Shown here: positions 48,444-63,029 of the stretch, piece after piece
Position numbering within the stretch: position 1 is the first letter of the stretch
Layout: every line of letters begins with the position of its first letter
Source: Bacteroidota bacterium
Lineage (GTDB): Bacteria; Bacteroidota; Bacteroidia; Chitinophagales; Chitinophagaceae
DNA length: 64,000 nt
Reading direction: 5' to 3'
NCBI GenBank assembly: GCA_947460595.1
Contig: CANHGS010000008.1
Location: 62,001-126,000, forward strand
Position numbers and translations under genes: made by a program
Notes under the pieces: generated by a model
Told to the model about the DNA's origin: nothing
The model's database searches: none
What the model saw: the letters and a program-made list of their open reading frames with translations, nothing else

Positions 48444-48552
48444 GTTTAATTGCTTTTATACGGGGCACAATATAATGGGGAATTCTCTTTTGTGCTGAAA
48501 AAATAGGCTGAAATAGGTTTTTAACCGGAAGAGGTTATATTTAACAGAACCA

Positions 48553-48568
48553 TTTCAAACGTTTGAAA
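48553..48568. promoter_or_regulatory. Perfect 16-bp palindrome, LacI-type operator candidate, before the GH127 gene
   Basis: TTTCAAACGTTTGAAA is a perfect palindrome with the central CpG typical of LacI-family operators. It ends two bases before the GH127 ATG and follows a weak promoter box (TATATTTA, 48536-48543). Its core CAAACGTTTG recurs with one change before the SusC gene. Confidence 0.55.
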
Positions 48569-48570
48569 AC

Positions 48571-50535
48571 ATGCAACAAAAAGGAATTTGGGCCATCATT
48601 GCCCTTTTAGGAACGCAGATAGGTTTGGCACAGACCCCTATTTCTACCATGGAACCCATTAGCTTTTCAGCTGTAACCATTAATGATGCTTTTTGGAAAC
48701 CCAAACAGGAATTACTGGCAAATACCACTTTAAAAGCTTGTATTTATCAAACGGAAACAGCTACCCCACGTCTGAGAAATTTTCAGAAAGTAGCTAGAAA
48801 AAAAGGAGAAAAGCACGAGGGCATTTTTTATGATGACTCGGACCTGTTTAAAGCCTTAGAAGCTATGGCCTATTCTTTGAAAAATCATCCAGATGCCAGT
48901 ATGGAAGCCAAAGCAGATGAATGGATTGAAATTATAGCTGCTGCTCAACAACCAGATGGTTATTTAAATACTTTTTATACACTCAATGAACCACAGAATA
49001 GGTATACCGATATGAGCATGCATGAAGACTATAATGCAGGTCATATGATTGAAGCAGCTGTTGCCTATTTTAATGCTACTGGTAAGAGAAAATTTTTGGA
49101 TGTATGTATTCGTTGGGCCAATCATTTTGATGCCTTATTTGGACCTGGTAAACGCCATTGGGTTACGGGTCACCAAGAATTGGAATTAGCTTTGGTTAAA
49201 TTGTATAAAACCACCAAGGACCAGAAATATTTAAAACTGGCCGATTGGTTATTAGATGAAAGAGGGCACAAATTTGCCAAAGGTTATACTTGGACCGATT
49301 GGAAAGACACGGCATATGCGCAAGATGTAGTTCCTGTAAAGCAACAATCAGAAATTACAGGTCACGCAGTACGTGCTATGTATATGTATACTGGCGCTGC
49401 CGATGTGGCTACACAAACAGGGGACACTGGCTATCTATCAGCCATGGTAAGGGTTTGGAAGGATGTGGTGTATAGAAATATGTATTTAACAGGCGGTATT
49501 GGATCATCTGGATCCAATGAAGGTTTTTCTGTAGATTATGACCTTCCCAATGAACAAGCTTATTGTGAAACCTGCGCTTCTGTTGGCATGGTTTTTTGGA
49601 ATCAGCGCATGAATTCCCTTACGGGCAATGCTACCTATATTGATGTGTTAGAGAGAAGCTTGTACAACGGTGCACTTGATGGTTTGAGTTTAACGGGTGA
49701 TAAATTTTTTTACGGAAACCCATTAGCCTCTAATGGCAAACACGCAAGAAAAGCCTGGTTTGGAACGGCTTGTTGTCCCGCCAATATTGCCCGACTAATT
49801 GCTTCTTTGGGCGATTATATTTATGCAAAAGACAATAAAGGCTTGTATGTAAATCTCTTTGTGGGCAGTGAAACAAAAATGATTTTGAACGGCCAAGAAA
49901 TTGGTATCAAAACCAATACCGAATATCCCCTCAATGGCAAAATTAAGATTGAAATTTCTGCCAATGGTCAAAATAGCTTTGCACTGCATATTAGAAAACC
50001 GGGATGGTCAGATAACACGGTGGTTCCAGGCGGACTCTATCATTATGCCATGGTCAACAAAACGGAGCCTAGTCTTATGATCAATGGTAAAACTGTCAGT
50101 GCTAGTTTGGTTAATGGCTATTACGTAATTGAACGCAAATGGAAAAAAGGAGATATTGTAGAATACCGCATTCCTATGCCTATTCAAAGAATTCAAGCAC
50201 AGGAGGTACTCAAAGAAGACCAACAAAGAATTGCCATTCAAAGAGGCCCCTTGGTTTATTGTGTGGAAGGTGCTGATAATGGTGGTAAAGCTTGGAATAT
50301 TTTGTTTCCTGACAATGCATCCATAGTAGAGAAACCCATGCAAGTTTTGGACGAGAAAGTAATTGGACTAAGCGCAATCTTACCAAGTTTGCAAATCAAT
50401 GCAGCTGGCACCCAAGCACAAACCGTTTTAAAAGAAGTTATTGCTATCCCTTACTATACCTGGTGTAATAGAGGAAGTAATCAAATGCAGGTATGGTTTC
50501 CAACAACTATCAAAGATGTAAAACTAAATTATTAG
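48571..50535 (+). CDS. Glycoside hydrolase family 127 enzyme, beta-L-arabinofuranosidase type
   Basis: Exported retaining glycosidase of GH127; characterised members release beta-L-arabinofuranose from plant glycoproteins and glycans using a zinc-bound cysteine nucleophile. The 654-residue product has a signal peptide (1-21, GLAQ), an (alpha/alpha)6 catalytic domain and C-terminal beta domains (about 430-640). The zinc/catalytic set of this family (Glu, Cys, Cys-Cys) is present as E333 and C335 in YCETCASVG and C401-C402 in TACCPANIAR. The substrate specificity could be another furanoside. Terminator not visible. A palindrome precedes it. Confidence 0.93.
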   Translation: MQQKGIWAIIALLGTQIGLAQTPISTMEPISFSAVTINDAFWKPKQELLANTTLKACIYQTETATPRLRNFQKVARKKGEKHEGIFYDDSDLFKALEAMAYSLKNHPDASMEAKADEWIEIIAAAQQPDGYLNTFYTLNEPQNRYTDMSMHEDYNAGHMIEAAVAYFNATGKRKFLDVCIRWANHFDALFGPGKRHWVTGHQELELALVKLYKTTKDQKYLKLADWLLDERGHKFAKGYTWTDWKDTAYAQDVVPVKQQSEITGHAVRAMYMYTGAADVATQTGDTGYLSAMVRVWKDVVYRNMYLTGGIGSSGSNEGFSVDYDLPNEQAYCETCASVGMVFWNQRMNSLTGNATYIDVLERSLYNGALDGLSLTGDKFFYGNPLASNGKHARKAWFGTACCPANIARLIASLGDYIYAKDNKGLYVNLFVGSETKMILNGQEIGIKTNTEYPLNGKIKIEISANGQNSFALHIRKPGWSDNTVVPGGLYHYAMVNKTEPSLMINGKTVSASLVNGYYVIERKWKKGDIVEYRIPMPIQRIQAQEVLKEDQQRIAIQRGPLVYCVEGADNGGKAWNILFPDNASIVEKPMQVLDEKVIGLSAILPSLQINAAGTQAQTVLKEVIAIPYYTWCNRGSNQMQVWFPTTIKDVKLNY

Positions 50536-50582
50536 ATCAAGGATTTCAAGATGCCCTAGCAATTCTTGAACTAATTCCTATA

Positions 50583-51614
50583 TTAAATGGGAGAATGGTA
50601 TCTTCCCATTCTTGGTGTTGAATTGGGTGAAAACCTTTTGTAAATCAGTGATATTTCAAAAGACCTTGTACTCACAGCACCGCTTTTAACGCTGGACACA
50701 TTCACGTCATAACTCAAACCAAATTGGACCTCATTATGGGTATACCCTATATAAGGGATAATTGCATCGCCAAGTCTGTAATAAATCCCTGCATTTAGCA
50801 TTCTTCTCTGATCCATTTCAAACTGTCCCGGACTCAATCCAAAAGCTAGGCTAGAACCAAAAGAGGTAGAACTTGTTCCATTTTGAATCATATGAATGGC
50901 ACTCACCGTTACATTCAAATCATCATTCAATGTTGTTCCAAAATCCGCGTGTATATCGTATCTAGGACTTACATACAATGAATTATTATCAAGCAGACTT
51001 CTACTAGATTTTACAAAACGATAACCGGCAACGCCCACATTTAGAAAAGAATAATCATTGACATGGGTAAACATAATACCCGCACATGCGGAAGAATAAG
51101 AAATTGATGGATTCAGATTGGGCTCTCCTGTTGGAAGTGCGCGATCAAACCCAGTACTTGACAATTGTTGGTCAGTTGTCAATGAAGCATAGTCTACTCT
51201 TGTATTATTTGAAACAAAACCCAAGCCAACAGCCAATCCGTTACCTTTATTATCAATTGACAGGTGATAAGCAGTATTGAAGTTTACATAAGTACTTTTA
51301 AAGGCTCCTTCTAAAGACCTATCGGCCAGAACCATTCCCCCAATTCCCAAATAATTGTCATCACCAAATTTTTTCAATTTTCCATCAATAGAGAAACTTT
51401 GAGTGCTATAAGGAGATCCCATTCCAACTGTTTGGGTTCTTATATTGGTCATTGCCCTCCAAACTGATTCACCATCACTAGTTAGCGCCGGGTTAATGGT
51501 CAATGGAGAAGAAAAAAATTGAGAAAAATTGGGGTCTTGAGCATGCAGTTTTGTTACTGATGATATTATCAACACTAATAAAAAAAATCTGCTGTGTATT
51601 TTAAAATTTCTCAT
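50583..51614 (-). CDS. PorP/SprF family outer-membrane protein of the type IX secretion pathway
   Basis: Beta-barrel-like outer-membrane protein needed for surface delivery of partner T9SS cargo. The 343-residue protein has a signal peptide (about 1-25, LHAQ), the family start QDPNFSQFFSSPLTINPALT and repeated beta-strand patterns to the C-terminal aromatic region (FEISLIYKRF). It follows a giant cargo gene after one base, the usual SprF-type gene order for type B cargo proteins. No other T9SS core gene lies in the window. Confidence 0.93.
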   Translation of the reverse strand: MRNFKIHSRFFLLVLIISSVTKLHAQDPNFSQFFSSPLTINPALTSDGESVWRAMTNIRTQTVGMGSPYSTQSFSIDGKLKKFGDDNYLGIGGMVLADRSLEGAFKSTYVNFNTAYHLSIDNKGNGLAVGLGFVSNNTRVDYASLTTDQQLSSTGFDRALPTGEPNLNPSISYSSACAGIMFTHVNDYSFLNVGVAGYRFVKSSRSLLDNNSLYVSPRYDIHADFGTTLNDDLNVTVSAIHMIQNGTSSTSFGSSLAFGLSPGQFEMDQRRMLNAGIYYRLGDAIIPYIGYTHNEVQFGLSYDVNVSSVKSGAVSTRSFEISLIYKRFSPNSTPRMGRYHSPI

Positions 51615-57519: not shown

Positions 57520-57840
57520 TTAGAGCAATATGATTAGCAAAAGAACAATCAGAACTACGGCACCAATAGATAAGTAAATCCCCCCACTTCTTTCTCTAAC
57601 TTCTGATTTCATGGCTCTTACTTCTTTGCGCAAGACTTTTTTCTCTTGAGAACTAAGTAATGACTTATCCATGTTTTGAATTTGAACTAGTCTTGCATTT
57701 ATTTGATTAAGGCGTAAGGTTTGTGTTTCAGTTAGGACAATTTCTTTTTTTGCAGAATGCGTATCTATTGCTGCATGGGTTTTAGGTAAATATGCTAGTG
57801 AAGAAATAACTAGTAAACATACCATGGCTGTCTTTTTCAT
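57520..57840 (-). CDS. Small membrane-anchored protein, unknown function
   Basis: 106 residues: signal peptide or N-terminal membrane segment (1-24, ending HAA), a central basic helix with coiled-coil character (LTETQTLRLNQINARLVQIQN ... EKKVLRKEVRAMK), and a C-terminal transmembrane helix of pure Ile/Leu/Val (IGAVVLIVLLLIILL). Such short proteins recur in Chitinophagaceae genomes but I know of no assigned role. It stands alone between AT-rich regions; TA-box promoters are not obvious. A terminator upstream (57960-57990) belongs to the SusD gene. Confidence 0.65.
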   Translation of the reverse strand: MKKTAMVCLLVISSLAYLPKTHAAIDTHSAKKEIVLTETQTLRLNQINARLVQIQNMDKSLLSSQEKKVLRKEVRAMKSEVRERSGGIYLSIGAVVLIVLLLIILL

Positions 57841-57959
57841 AATGATATTTTAGTGTTTGTAATTGATTTGTCAAAGTTGCAAAATTGCTTGACCAACTTA
57901 TTACAAACACTGTTGTCATTCTTGCGGCATTCACAGGTTTAGGTTAGGCCAGAAATTAG

Positions 57960-57990
57960 AAAATCCCAGAACCTGAGGAACTGGGATTTT
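57960..57990 (-). terminator. Rho-independent terminator after susD
   Basis: Stem AAAATCCCAG (57960-57969) / CTGGGATTTT (57981-57990) lying 46 bases after the SusD stop, with T-rich sequence on the minus-strand side. Confidence 0.75.
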
Positions 57991-58036
57991 CTAATAGCCC
58001 TATTTAAAAGACCATTAAGTATTCCAAATAACTGCA

Positions 58037-59533
58037 TTAATAACCTGCATTCTGCGTATACAAGCCAGCTCTTGCATCCAATTCTGCTTGTGGAACTGGA
58101 TAGATGATATAGTTTTTATTAAAGGGTAGCATTTGCTTTAACACGTCTTCGGTAGTTATCCAAGCAGGGATAATGGTTTCAATATTCCCGCTACGAACCA
58201 GATCGTGCCAACGGTTACCTTCATTACCAAATTCTTTTCTACGTTCTGCAAATAACTGAGCTAGGGTTACACCTGAAGCGGCACCAGTAATACCAGCACG
58301 ATTTCTAACCTGTGTTACTATGGCATCAACATCTGCCTGTGTTCCACCTGTTGCGCCTCGTAAAATACATTCTGCCTTTAGGAGTAATACATCGGTATAC
58401 CTGCTAACAATAAAATTGATGGGCCAGTCAGTACGAACTGCAGGAATCTTAGTAATGTCAATCCATTTCTTTTCAAAAGAACGGGTTTCTGTAATACCAT
58501 TGTACGTGAAACCAGTTTGAATATAAAATGGTTTTCTAAGATCGGTTGCTGCAAAAGCATTTAAAAAATCAGTAGATACCGGCCTAATCAACAATCCACC
58601 TTGGATAGGTTTACCCTGAGAGAGGAACCAGTTATCTGGTACAGTAATCCAAGGAAAAGTTGCACCCACTGCAGGGTTCAGGCCATTTACATATTGCACA
58701 TCAAAAATAACTTCGGGGTTATTTTCATTGGTGAAAGAAAAAATATTGGCATAGCTGGCACCAAAACTATATTTACCAGAAGCAATGATTTCGTTTAACA
58801 GAGTCAATGCCTGATTCCATTCAGATACACCAAGACCGGGACCGTTAATGCCATAACTAGCACCTGATCTGGTCATGTGAACTAATGCTAATATAGATTT
58901 TGCAGCCCATTTGGTAGCCCTACCCTTGTCACCTGCAGCGGCATAGACATCGGGCAAATTGGCACTTGCAAATTGAAGGTCAGCAATAATTTGGGTATAA
59001 ACTTCTGGAATGGTATTTCTTTTTAAAGAAGCTGCTTCTGAGGCGGTAAGTGGATGATCCGTTAAAGGCACTTCTCCAAAATAACGTACCAAGTCAAAAT
59101 AATAAAAAGCACGCAGGAATTTAGCTTCCGCTTCAATCTGTGTTTTTAATGAGGCAGGAGAAATTACGGATCCTTTTGCAGCTAATTGTTCTAATAAAAC
59201 ATTAGCCTTATAAATTCCATTGAAATTAGCATTCCATGCTTCTACCACATAGACATTCCCACTAATGGTCTTCTGAAAATTATTAATTGGCTCCCAGTCA
59301 CGAGGACCATCGGCCGTTGCATATAAATTATCTGATCTTGTTTCAGACAAGTTGATCAATCTGTCTGGATATCCTTTTAAGTTGTTATAAACGGCATTAA
59401 CACCATTAACAAATTCACTTGTTTGGGTATAAAATGTAGCTGAGGTAGCGGAGGATAATGGAATCTGGTCTAATTTCTTCTCGCAAGAAACTAAGACAAT
59501 CAGGGTTGATATTAGAAAATATATTTTTTTCAT
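58037..59533 (-). CDS. SusD/RagB family nutrient-binding outer-membrane lipoprotein
   Basis: Surface lipoprotein that captures glycans or peptides and hands them to its SusC partner. From MKKIYFLI the product is 498 residues: lipoprotein signal with lipobox LVSC, Cys18, then the SusD fold with TPR-like helices (LDQIPLSSATSATFYTQTSEF near 25-45, KAEAKFLRAFYYFDLVRYFGEVPL near 140-165) and the C-terminal RRKEFGNEGNRWHDLVR motif. An ATG three codons upstream would also fit. It starts 21 bases after the SusC gene. No glycoside hydrolase or sensor regulator sits beside the pair, so the substrate is not predictable. Confidence 0.95.
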   Translation of the reverse strand: MKKIYFLISTLIVLVSCEKKLDQIPLSSATSATFYTQTSEFVNGVNAVYNNLKGYPDRLINLSETRSDNLYATADGPRDWEPINNFQKTISGNVYVVEAWNANFNGIYKANVLLEQLAAKGSVISPASLKTQIEAEAKFLRAFYYFDLVRYFGEVPLTDHPLTASEAASLKRNTIPEVYTQIIADLQFASANLPDVYAAAGDKGRATKWAAKSILALVHMTRSGASYGINGPGLGVSEWNQALTLLNEIIASGKYSFGASYANIFSFTNENNPEVIFDVQYVNGLNPAVGATFPWITVPDNWFLSQGKPIQGGLLIRPVSTDFLNAFAATDLRKPFYIQTGFTYNGITETRSFEKKWIDITKIPAVRTDWPINFIVSRYTDVLLLKAECILRGATGGTQADVDAIVTQVRNRAGITGAASGVTLAQLFAERRKEFGNEGNRWHDLVRSGNIETIIPAWITTEDVLKQMLPFNKNYIIYPVPQAELDARAGLYTQNAGY

Positions 59534-59554
59534 GATAGTCATTTTTCGGGTTGA

Positions 59555-62500
59555 TTAAAATGTGAAATTCAAACCAAAGATGAAAGACTTTGGAATGGGC
59601 AATCCGCCATAGTCAGATGCTTCAGGGAAGGCTGAACTTCCACTTACGTCTGTATTGGTAGCTTCGGGATTAAATCCGCCTTTGTATTTATCATATCCAA
59701 AGAAATTTTCTAAAGACATATAGGCACGTGCAGACTGGATTAATTTTCCTTTGAATACTTGTCCAAAATTATAGCCCAATGTAATATTTCTAATACGCAG
59801 GTAATCTGAAGAATACATCCAGTCAGTATTCTTAATTCTTCCAAAAGTAGAATAGGCTTTGCTCACAACACCTGCACCAGGATTGGCTGCAGAGAACCAA
59901 CGATCACGATAAGTACCCAATGCATTGTCTGAAAAACCTTGTCCAGTTCTACCTAGTGCTCTTCCCAATAAAGAATACAATTGACCACCATTTTGACCTT
60001 GGATTAAGATGCTTAAATCAAAGCCCTTATATTTGAAAGTATTGGTAATACCCCATACATAATCTGGGTTAGGTTTACCAACAATGGTGCGGTCATTGGC
60101 ATCAATGGTACCATCGCCATTGGCGTCAAAATATTTTGGATCACCTTCTGTTTCTCCAGCCATAATGGGCGATTTCTTTGCAATGTCATCCGCAGTTAAA
60201 ATGCCCAATTGCTTCACCACAAAAATGCTATACATGGGATCTCCAATTCTTAAAATAGAATGGTTGATATCTAGGTTTGAAGGAATTAAAATCTGAGACT
60301 GTCCACCTGGTAAGCTGACCAATTTATTGGCATTGTGACTTAGGTTAAGCGTAGTTGACCATTCAAATTTACCAACCATGTTTTTACTGGTTATTTGAAA
60401 TTCCCAACCCTTATTTCTAGCACTTCCCGCATTACTTAAATATGAGGTAAATCCAGTTGCAGCTAAAATTGGAACGTTTAACAACAAATCAGTACTCAAT
60501 CTGGTATAATAATCAAATGAAACAGACAATCTGTTTTTCAAAACAGTCAAGTCAAATCCTACATCAAATGTTTCTGATTTTTCCCAAGCCAAATCTGGGT
60601 TGGTAATGCTATTAGGCGCTTGACCAACAGCAGCTACACCATTGAAAGTATAATTAAAAGTTCCCAAAGTACTGATGGTACTATAGTTACCAATATTGTA
60701 GTTACCAGACTTACCCCAGCTTGCCCTAATTTTCAAGTCATTGATGGCAGTAACTTTTCTCATAAAGTCTTCTTCACTTAACCTCCATCCAATAGAAGCT
60801 GATGGGAATAATCCCCAACGCGTATTGCTGCCGAATCTTGAAGATCCATCACGGCGCATACTTGCTGTTAACATGTATTTATTCTTATAGTTATATTGCA
60901 TCCTTCCAAAATAAGAAACTAACACATTTCTGGCTTCATTTGTGTTACCAATTACACCGTTGGCATCTGATAAAGTAGTAATGGCGTTTCCGCGAAAACC
61001 ACCAACAGAAGACATACTAACCGCGTCTATCTTGTCTACGTTATAGGACTGACCCAACAACACATTGATATCATGTGCTCCTGCAATGGTCTTGCTGTAA
61101 GACAAAGTATTTTCATTTACAAAAGTCTGTTTGCGATAACTGTTATAAGTTCCAGAAGTGAGCGTTGAACCTCCACCACTGGAAGGAGCAGCTTGTCTGG
61201 TTAAAACGGAACTTGCTGCTACATAGGGTACATAGGTTTTTGCATTGTTATCCGTATTATCAAAGTTAACGGTAGTCTTAAAGTTTAAGCCAGATATGAT
61301 TTGGTATTCACCATACAAAGAGGCAATAGTTCTGAAGCGTTTTGTTTCACCTAAGAAATTTTGTAATTTCCCAATGGGGCTATTAGGAGAAACGCCCCAT
61401 CTATATTGACCATTGTTACCTACGTTTGGATACAAACCCATGGTATCTTCTTGCACAGGTGTAAAACTCACCATTTGGTGCAAGATATTGTCCTTGCCTT
61501 CAACTCCGGGGTCATTGTTTACAGAATAACTTGGAGCCACATTCATTCCAATCTTTAATTTTCTACTAACATTGGCTTCAATGTTAGCCCTCACAGAATA
61601 AGAAGTAAAATCGGTATTGATGACCATTCCTTCTTGACGGGCATAGTTACCAGAGATATAATATTTTACAAATTCATTGCCACCTGTAGCAGATAGCTGA
61701 TGGTTCTGACCCATCCCTTTTCTGAAAGCAGCATCTTGCCAATCTATATAATTCAAACCAGGATGCCCAGGTGTATTCCATCTATCATCGCCCATAAAGG
61801 CAGTATTTACAGAACCTACAGGAAGCCCTAACACAACTCTTCTTTGGTCATAGGTTTGAGAAGCAGTTCTGGCAGGACCTGCCACTGGAGAAGAAGCCAC
61901 CCATTGGGCGTCAACCATTTCTTTTGCGCGAGTTACCCACTCATCTGCACTCAACATATCTAATTTGCGACTTCTTTCTATATAACCCATATAACTATTC
62001 AAAGTAATTTTTGCTTTTCCATTTTGGCCTTTCTTGGTAGTTATCAAGACTACCCCATTGGCTGCTCTAGAACCATAAATGGAAGCAGCAGCAGCGTCTT
62101 TTAATACTTGAATAGACTCAATATCATTGGGGTTAATATTGTCTAATGGATTTCCCTGACCAAAATTACCAGAACCATTAGGAGCTGCAGTGGCTAATGG
62201 AAAACCATCTACCACATACAAGGGCTCACTACCAGCGGTAATAGAACCCGTACCACGTACTTGCACGCTAAATGCTTTTCCTAATCCACCACTGGTTTGT
62301 TTAACCGTAACACCGGCCATTTGACCAACCAAGGCCTGGTCAACCCTTAAAATGGGTCTTTCCACTAAGCTTTTGGCGTCAAAATTAGAAACAGCTCCGG
62401 TTACATTTCTTTTCTTTTGCGTACCGTATCCTACTACTACCACTTCATCTAGATTATTGGTAGACTTTTGCATTAGAATAGTAAAATTGGTTCTGTTAGT

Positions 62501-62785
62501 TGTTCCTGCTTCTTGATCAGCAAAACCAATGGAACTAACCACCAGCGTTGCTTTTGCTGGTACACTTAAACTAAAAGACCCATCAGCCTTAGTAGACGTT
62601 TTTTCGGAACTATTTTTCACTTGAACCGTAGCTCCTTCCAAAGGATTTCCAGTTTGGTCTGTGACTTTACCTGTTACTAAGATTTTGCTGTTTTGACTAA
62701 AGGAAGAAAGTGGAGAGACTAAGAGTCCCAACAAGAATAGTGTTATAAAAACACAGTTACGCCAGAGGCATGATGGCAGCTTCAT
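59555..62785 (-). CDS. SusC/RagA family TonB-linked outer-membrane transporter
   Basis: TonB-dependent barrel that imports the substrate captured by SusD. The 1076-residue protein has a signal peptide (about 1-30), a carboxypeptidase-regulatory-like domain (about 35-115), the plug with DEVVVVGYGTQKKRNVTGAVS around 115-135, and a long beta-barrel ending in a C-terminal aromatic residue (FGLNFTF). Paired with SusD. No STN domain is visible, so it is not an obvious anti-sigma/sigma-signalling transporter. A palindrome resembling the GH127 operator lies four bases before its start codon. Confidence 0.96.
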   Translation of the reverse strand: MKLPSCLWRNCVFITLFLLGLLVSPLSSFSQNSKILVTGKVTDQTGNPLEGATVQVKNSSEKTSTKADGSFSLSVPAKATLVVSSIGFADQEAGTTNRTNFTILMQKSTNNLDEVVVVGYGTQKKRNVTGAVSNFDAKSLVERPILRVDQALVGQMAGVTVKQTSGGLGKAFSVQVRGTGSITAGSEPLYVVDGFPLATAAPNGSGNFGQGNPLDNINPNDIESIQVLKDAAAASIYGSRAANGVVLITTKKGQNGKAKITLNSYMGYIERSRKLDMLSADEWVTRAKEMVDAQWVASSPVAGPARTASQTYDQRRVVLGLPVGSVNTAFMGDDRWNTPGHPGLNYIDWQDAAFRKGMGQNHQLSATGGNEFVKYYISGNYARQEGMVINTDFTSYSVRANIEANVSRKLKIGMNVAPSYSVNNDPGVEGKDNILHQMVSFTPVQEDTMGLYPNVGNNGQYRWGVSPNSPIGKLQNFLGETKRFRTIASLYGEYQIISGLNFKTTVNFDNTDNNAKTYVPYVAASSVLTRQAAPSSGGGSTLTSGTYNSYRKQTFVNENTLSYSKTIAGAHDINVLLGQSYNVDKIDAVSMSSVGGFRGNAITTLSDANGVIGNTNEARNVLVSYFGRMQYNYKNKYMLTASMRRDGSSRFGSNTRWGLFPSASIGWRLSEEDFMRKVTAINDLKIRASWGKSGNYNIGNYSTISTLGTFNYTFNGVAAVGQAPNSITNPDLAWEKSETFDVGFDLTVLKNRLSVSFDYYTRLSTDLLLNVPILAATGFTSYLSNAGSARNKGWEFQITSKNMVGKFEWSTTLNLSHNANKLVSLPGGQSQILIPSNLDINHSILRIGDPMYSIFVVKQLGILTADDIAKKSPIMAGETEGDPKYFDANGDGTIDANDRTIVGKPNPDYVWGITNTFKYKGFDLSILIQGQNGGQLYSLLGRALGRTGQGFSDNALGTYRDRWFSAANPGAGVVSKAYSTFGRIKNTDWMYSSDYLRIRNITLGYNFGQVFKGKLIQSARAYMSLENFFGYDKYKGGFNPEATNTDVSGSSAFPEASDYGGLPIPKSFIFGLNFTF

Positions 62786-62789
62786 AAAA

Positions 62790-62799
62790 CAATCGTTTG
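62790..62799. promoter_or_regulatory. LacI-like operator half-palindrome before susC, matching the GH127 site
   Basis: On the minus strand the site reads CAAACGATTG, nine of ten bases identical to CAAACGTTTG before GH127 and at nearly the same distance from the start codon (four versus five bases). It is an imperfect palindrome on its own. Confidence 0.4.
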
Positions 62800-62890
62800 G
62801 TTTTTTAAAAAGAAATGGCAGTGCACGGGCACTAACTAAAAGTAGATTTGATACAATGGCTTACTATCCTGTACAATACTGCCAAAAGAT

Positions 62891-62927
62891 AAAAAGTGCA
62901 TCAAAAGAGGATTTTGATGCACTTTTT
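62891..62927 (-). terminator. Strong terminator between the YceI and SusC genes
   Basis: Perfect 16-bp stem AAAAAGTGCATCAAAA (62891-62906) / TTTTGATGCACTTTTT (62912-62927) with a 5-nt loop; the 3' T-run is part of the stem on either strand, so it may terminate in both directions. It isolates susC from the upstream YceI gene. Confidence 0.85.
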
Positions 62928-63029
62928 ACGTACGGGAACGATTGCGTAAAATGGAAATATTATTGGAAAAATAGAATCCGATTAGGATAAATAAAATTGC
63001 AAAAAATGTTTTGGCTTAAGTGACTTGAC

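Follow-up and report, generated by a model that had tools for sequence, protein, structure and literature searches.

A SusCD pair without an adjoining enzyme is predicted to belong to a LacI-type pectin regulon in a Chitinophagaceae genome

What a SusCD pair imports is commonly deduced from the enzymes encoded next to it, and pairs that have no such neighbours thus stay unassigned. The LacI-family uronate regulators UxaR, KdgR and UxuR have been described in Bacteroides (PMC3878776, PMC4052901), and the rhamnogalacturonan SusCD loci of B. thetaiotaomicron have been assigned to HTCS regulators (PMC3878776). The system considered here shares with the UxaR, KdgR and UxuR regulons, as outlined in these sources, a LacI-family regulator near galacturonate/KDG catabolism genes and an even palindrome with a central CG (PMC3878776, PMC4052901). 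Unlike the Bacteroides uronate regulons in that outline, it has such sites before susC genes as well, including one on a different contig. Our literature search (titles and abstract openings, among the matches listed) found no paper describing a pectin regulator of the LacI family in Chitinophagaceae. With its predicted LacI-type site directly before susC genes, including the remote one, the system adds to a known kind of regulon. Rhamnogalacturonan-type polysaccharide utilisation loci offer another comparison. In other Bacteroidota, relatives of the SusC studied here adjoin PL22 and GH106 genes (locus L174) or pectinesterase, GH28 and GH106 genes (L178), whereas the SusCD pair in this genome has no adjoining enzyme and its counterpart in a sister species is accompanied by a GH2 gene. 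PurR-type LacI operators have the consensus ACGCAAACGTTTGCGT; the operator proposed below has the same ACGCAAACG half-site with its outer CG, but differs in its other half, CCGGGAACG, and in having its regulator in a pectin cluster.

The window, meaning the whole 64,000-nucleotide stretch analysed, corresponds to positions 62001-126000 of contig C8 (G000:C8:62001-126000) in a 3.66-Mb genome of 44 contigs. The sister genome used for comparison is the MAG Chitinophagaceae bacterium BSSC1, whose SusC is 94% identical to the SusC of the window. The features discussed are as follows.

48553-48568, no strand assigned: perfect 16-bp palindrome TTTCAAACGTTTGAAA before GH127, the first of two sites in the initial annotation
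48571-50535, plus strand: GH127 beta-L-arabinofuranosidase-like enzyme, 654 aa (PF07944, 1.4e-101; closest solved chain 6ex6_B, 2.8e-158)
58037-59542, minus strand: SusD-like glycan-binding protein, 501 aa (PF14322, PF07980)
59555-62785, minus strand: SusC-like TonB-dependent importer, 1076 aa (PF00593, PF07715, PF13715)
62790-62799, minus strand: CAAACGATTG without outer CG, 4 bp before the SusC ATG, the second site in the initial annotation
62889-62929, minus strand: between the predicted operator and susC, hairpin of 18 pairs with a 5-nt loop and a T-rich stretch after it (-22.7 kcal/mol, z -9.4)
62930-62951, minus strand: predicted operator of the LacI pectin regulator encoded on contig C1, upstream of susC, with core ACGGGAACGATTGCGT (TTTTACGCAATCGTTCCCGTAC read toward susC)

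What the initial annotation had described at the two start codons is correct. A gap of 2 bp separates the palindrome TTTCAAACGTTTGAAA from the GH127 ATG at 48571, one of 4 bp separates CAAACGATTG from the SusC ATG at 62785 on the minus strand, the two sites agree in 9 of 10 core bases, and the loci, put at about 14 kb apart, are separated by 14.2 kb between starts. Pfam agrees with the identities given for GH127, SusC and SusD, the solved relatives closest to the GH127 protein include GH127 enzymes, and the SusCD pair was rightly said to have no enzyme beside it.

Seven LacI-family genes in the genome lie above the cut-off. One of them, on contig C1 (G000:C1:393029-394057), encodes a 343-aa protein with PF00356 (LacI HTH) and PF13377 (periplasmic-binding-protein-like sugar domain) and is surrounded by two SusCD pairs and by pectinesterase, GH43, alpha-L-fucosidase and GH28 genes. 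Genes for a pectic lyase, altronate dehydratase, UxaC, a mannitol-dehydrogenase-family reductase, an SDR, KduI, an MFS transporter, a PfkB kinase and a KDPG-type aldolase are also nearby, and this gene neighbourhood is what the putative label UxaR/KdgR-like refers to. A search with this protein gave matches in 62 of 120 genomes including its own, many of them other LacI proteins; for the orthologue sample, 21 full-length relatives with 57-82% identity were taken from other genomes. When upstream sequences of up to 350 bp from these 21 orthologues were searched for motifs without a preset pattern, TTTTACGCAAACGTTCCCGG emerged as the top motif, present in 19. The exceptions (L188 and L191) score below zero for TTTTACGCAAACGTTCCCGG, and such a site lies 415-429 bp from the start in their genomes. 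The best match to the pattern-free motif in the window was found at 62932-62951, with 31.6 bits and rank 1 of 127,962 positions, the next match reaching 6.1 bits. This match, ACGGGAACGATTGCGTAAAA, is a far stronger LacI-type site that had previously been missed. At the level of sequence, the earlier proposal of a LacI-type repressor is right in that a LacI-family regulator probably controls SusCD. A second matrix, built from 26 pattern-picked intergenic matches in 19 of 20 stretches around regulator relatives and therefore partly presupposing the outer CG, likewise placed the operator site at rank 1 of 127,962 (24.9 bits; second-best 11.4), with left-out training sites ranging from 3.5 to 33.4 bits. 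The outer CG occurs in both halves of 24 of the 26 regulator-linked sites, a set picked with a CG-bearing pattern, while the pattern-free sites carry it on one side in 19/19 cases and on the other side in 17/19.

The 14-mer CGGGAACGATTGCG within this site (C8:124933-124946, window 62933-62946) recurs in the pectin cluster ahead of two susC genes, identically at C1:396668 and with one base different at C1:384922. Allowing at most one mismatch, CCGGGAACGWTTGCGTA (the CGGGAACG kind) occurs three times in the genome, each time before a susC gene. Two of these three firm sites are in the pectin cluster, where one also faces GH29 and LacI genes, and the third is at the orphan susC of the window. Two looser sites on C1 precede a kduD-like gene (14.3 bits) and separate kdgK-like and KDPG-aldolase genes (19.0 bits). 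With the pattern-picked matrix, sites beside another LacI gene reach 18.1 bits (L103), nearly the score of the kdgK-like site and more than that of the kduD-like site, which makes the owner of both looser sites less sure; they probably belong to the same predicted regulon. Looser genome-wide counts showed no enrichment, either for CGNAAACGNTTNCG with one mismatch (24 forward and 17 reverse against 135 and 125 for the reversed control) or for CCGGGAACGWTTGCGTA with three mismatches (7 + 2 against 8 + 9), and the value of the longer CGNAAACGNTTNCG-type pattern lies in where its sites fall, not in their number.

Comparison with BSSC1 demonstrated that the 27 bases TTACGCAATCGTTCCCGTACGTAAAAA, which contain the operator, are identical there and have changed bases on both flanks. 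Also retained upstream of the BSSC1 susC are another block, GCAGTATTGTACAGGATAGTA, and the part that holds the start-proximal core, so the whole upstream region is under some constraint. BSSC1 has the same three firm sites at the same genes, and the two looser sites are present too. At four more distant SusC loci (L174, L177, L178 and L068) no match to CGGGAACGATTGCG within two mismatches was found, and L176 begins inside the gene; the operator footprint is therefore that of one sister species. The SusC proteins of L174, L177 and L178 are longer, and their genes are preceded by two genes resembling, by sequence only, a sigma factor and an anti-sigma partner, a putative pair that may be the reason for the absent LacI site at these loci.

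The likely substrate was approached through gene order elsewhere. Five SusC relatives are 50-65% identical to the SusC of the window, and three of them adjoin rhamnogalacturonan or rhamnose genes: L174 and L178, with the enzymes given above, and L155, which has genes resembling those of L174 by sequence together with rhamnose-catabolism-like genes (an aldolase-dehydrogenase fusion and an FGGY kinase). No pectin enzyme was found in the 23 kb available for L177, and the L176 stretch is too short to judge. In BSSC1 the GH2 gene directly follows SusD (L173:14736-17804) and is absent from 57840-58037 of the window; a search for a counterpart in the window and the other available stretches gave distant GH2 relatives elsewhere only. 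The pair is therefore enzyme-less by loss here or by gain in BSSC1. The most likely role of the orphan SusCD is that of a distal importer of pectic oligosaccharides, controlled by the putative UxaR/KdgR-like LacI regulator. The regulator's predicted site would in this manner assign a neighbourless SusCD to pectin uptake, gene order elsewhere agreeing in 3 of 5 cases, and the orphan pair gains a specific, testable function, ordinary in kind. The earlier suggestion of a dispersed carbohydrate utilisation unit holds at sequence level insofar as SusCD appears to belong to one, but the partners differ from those proposed, being the pectin/galacturonate cluster on another contig.

Taken together, SusCD (58037-62785) very probably belongs to a pectin/galacturonate regulon under the C1 LacI regulator, detached from its other members, with the start-proximal cores being chance or secondary. 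The regulator would bind an asymmetric 20-bp palindrome, TTTTACGCAA[A/T]CGTTCCCGG, and would most likely hold its sites until released by a pectin breakdown product, judging from its family, whose sites and effectors are reviewed in PMC4052901. A uronate or related breakdown product is the probable releasing effector. In the presence of pectin fragments the orphan SusCD would then be produced together with the rest of the regulon, and its cargo would be rhamnogalacturonan-type oligosaccharides. The start-proximal cores at GH127 and SusC would be chance or secondary look-alikes. The same review (PMC4052901) puts most LacI-family sites 30-140 bp upstream, and the predicted operator, about 145-166 bp upstream of the SusC ATG, is just outside that range. 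The strong hairpin at 62889-62929 is not among the entries of a terminator scan, which gave two other weak hairpins, and its BSSC1 counterpart is weaker and partly changed; it is possibly a terminator of the upstream gene or a leader element. Given the operator distance and the intervening strong hairpin, simple blocking is not obvious. For the first susC of the cluster, a TAnnTTTG-like element is found downstream, 73 bp from the operator's start, which makes repression at a distance possible, as well as activation.

The initial annotation had interpreted the two start-codon sites as targets of one LacI-type repressor that couples GH127 to SusCD, a reading we consider unlikely. Their similarity is real and extends to 10/10 core bases in BSSC1, where GH127 has CAAACGATTG and both sites are kept. 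The core CAAACGWTTG is also found intergenically in 11 of 25 genome places against 2 of 19 reversed-control places under one gene-calling rule (p 0.02) and in 10 of 25 under another (p 0.04). Several of these intergenic places precede carbohydrate genes (amylase-like, a PfkB kinase/KDPG-type aldolase pair, fucosidase and SusC) and a LacI gene, and others precede FecR-like, NusG-like and MFS genes; the core therefore marks some LacI-type sites. As a genome-wide operator definition it was rejected as too short, 14 of the 25 places being intragenic. Exact matches are not over-abundant genome-wide (15 forward and 15 reverse against 17 and 14 for the reversed control), and with one mismatch allowed the window holds 13 matches against 10.8 expected. 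The scan near start codons that had been suggested did return cores ending within 10 bp of a start in 3 of 25 places (GH127, SusC and NusG-like) against 0 of 19 controls, but at p 0.25; the companion search for LacI regulators with such sites did find sites near LacI genes, but most of these have extra outer bases of the CGnAAACGnTTnCG kind. Both start-proximal sites lack the outer CG. The GH127 palindrome scores -5.3 bits with the pattern-picked matrix and -14.2 bits (rank 575 of 127,962) with the pattern-free motif, and the SusC core -6.9 and -22.0 bits (rank 3199 of 127,962), scores that cover one regulator of the seven. The GH127 palindrome thus fails to match the motif upstream of the C1 regulator orthologues and is probably not an operator of that regulator. 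Start-hugging positions also stand against the 30-140 bp at which LacI-family sites mostly lie in the review cited (PMC4052901). The operator assigned to the start-adjacent position is placed instead at 62932-62951, and the case illustrates how a much better site, at a distance of about 130 bp, can be overlooked in favour of a plausible short palindrome.

Results from GH127 relatives bear on the same question. Of 29 genomes that gave any match, 17 contributed orthologues of the same genus (56-74% identical) once partial copies and weaker paralogues were set aside, and at least one locus (L156) shares the gene order of the window as judged by protein likeness. The core is absent from the vicinity of the start in all 17 leaders, where the closest match (at most two mismatches) is 44 bp away. 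The patterns tried gave no intergenic LacI-type site in any of the 17 neighbourhoods, and exact cores and weak matches to the matrix fell inside genes only, which leaves GH127 unsupported as a regulatory partner of SusCD. In BSSC1 the GH127 site reads TTTCAAACGATTGAAA, and the single base change breaks the palindrome symmetry; the palindrome is accordingly not conserved with its gene. That change is the sole one among the last 40 leader bases. With 39/40 bases kept, the GH127 leader is the best kept of the comparable BSSC1 leaders (32/40 for the M28 gene and 26/40 for the 106-aa gene), which favours a functional reading, although the test is weak since these two genes are the only comparators for GH127 and SusC: of 12 genes tried, six starts were not found in the available stretches, the SusD upstream region is mostly SusC coding and the 134-aa gene offers 2 upstream bases. 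We consider it likely that the start-proximal sites have no operator role and either arose by chance or belong to conserved promoter or leader DNA. Ten simulated windows held a mean of 2.1 perfect 16-bp palindromes, so that about two are expected per 64 kb, and TTTCAAACGTTTGAAA is the sole one in the window; BSSC1 loses its symmetry while the flanking leader stays. The palindrome was also considered as an RNA hairpin and rejected, its folding being no better than that of shuffles (z 0.21). Against chance stand the rarity of perfect palindromes with a central CG (0.1 per 64 kb in the simulations), the 3/25 start-proximal cores and the unusually good conservation of the GH127 leader; on balance the GH127 palindrome is probably chance. 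A xylose-type LacI on C14 was tried as its owner and set aside, with no matching intergenic site nearby.

Two further readings would give the start-proximal cores a role beside the upstream operator. Start-hugging CAAACGWTTG without outer CG (GH127, orphan susC and NusG-like) might form a second operator class in both sister species, the susC one working with the upstream operator by looping or roadblock and the class linking pectin uptake to the arabinofuranosidase and to a NusG-like antiterminator gene; we regard this as very unlikely. Least probable of the readings weighed here is that the SusC start core alone is an auxiliary operator, looping DNA with the strong operator 146 bp upstream. 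One upstream region does hold two LacI-type cores, both kept in BSSC1, but the auxiliary core lacks the outer CG.

Several side observations were made on other LacI-type sites and on the sister genome. Sites of the CGCAAACGnTTGCG kind (L103:6224-6309, L103:14323-14342 and L102:12504-12523) occur in another two clusters that contain LacI and SusC-like genes and are probably separate LacI regulons of the same genome. A LacI-family regulator at L097:9667-10836 has about 55 extra N-terminal residues with zinc-ribbon-like cysteine pairs (a weak Lar match, below cut-off) and the LacI-type site TTGCGGAAACGTTTTCGATA just upstream. Between the GH127 and PorP genes, BSSC1 carries about 7.4 kb (L235:6538-13933) with a GNAT gene and several others that are absent from 50535-50583 of the window. 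A third start-proximal CAAACGATTG lies 7 bp before the NusG-like gene (L034, G000:C25:6074-6083) and is kept in BSSC1 (L238).
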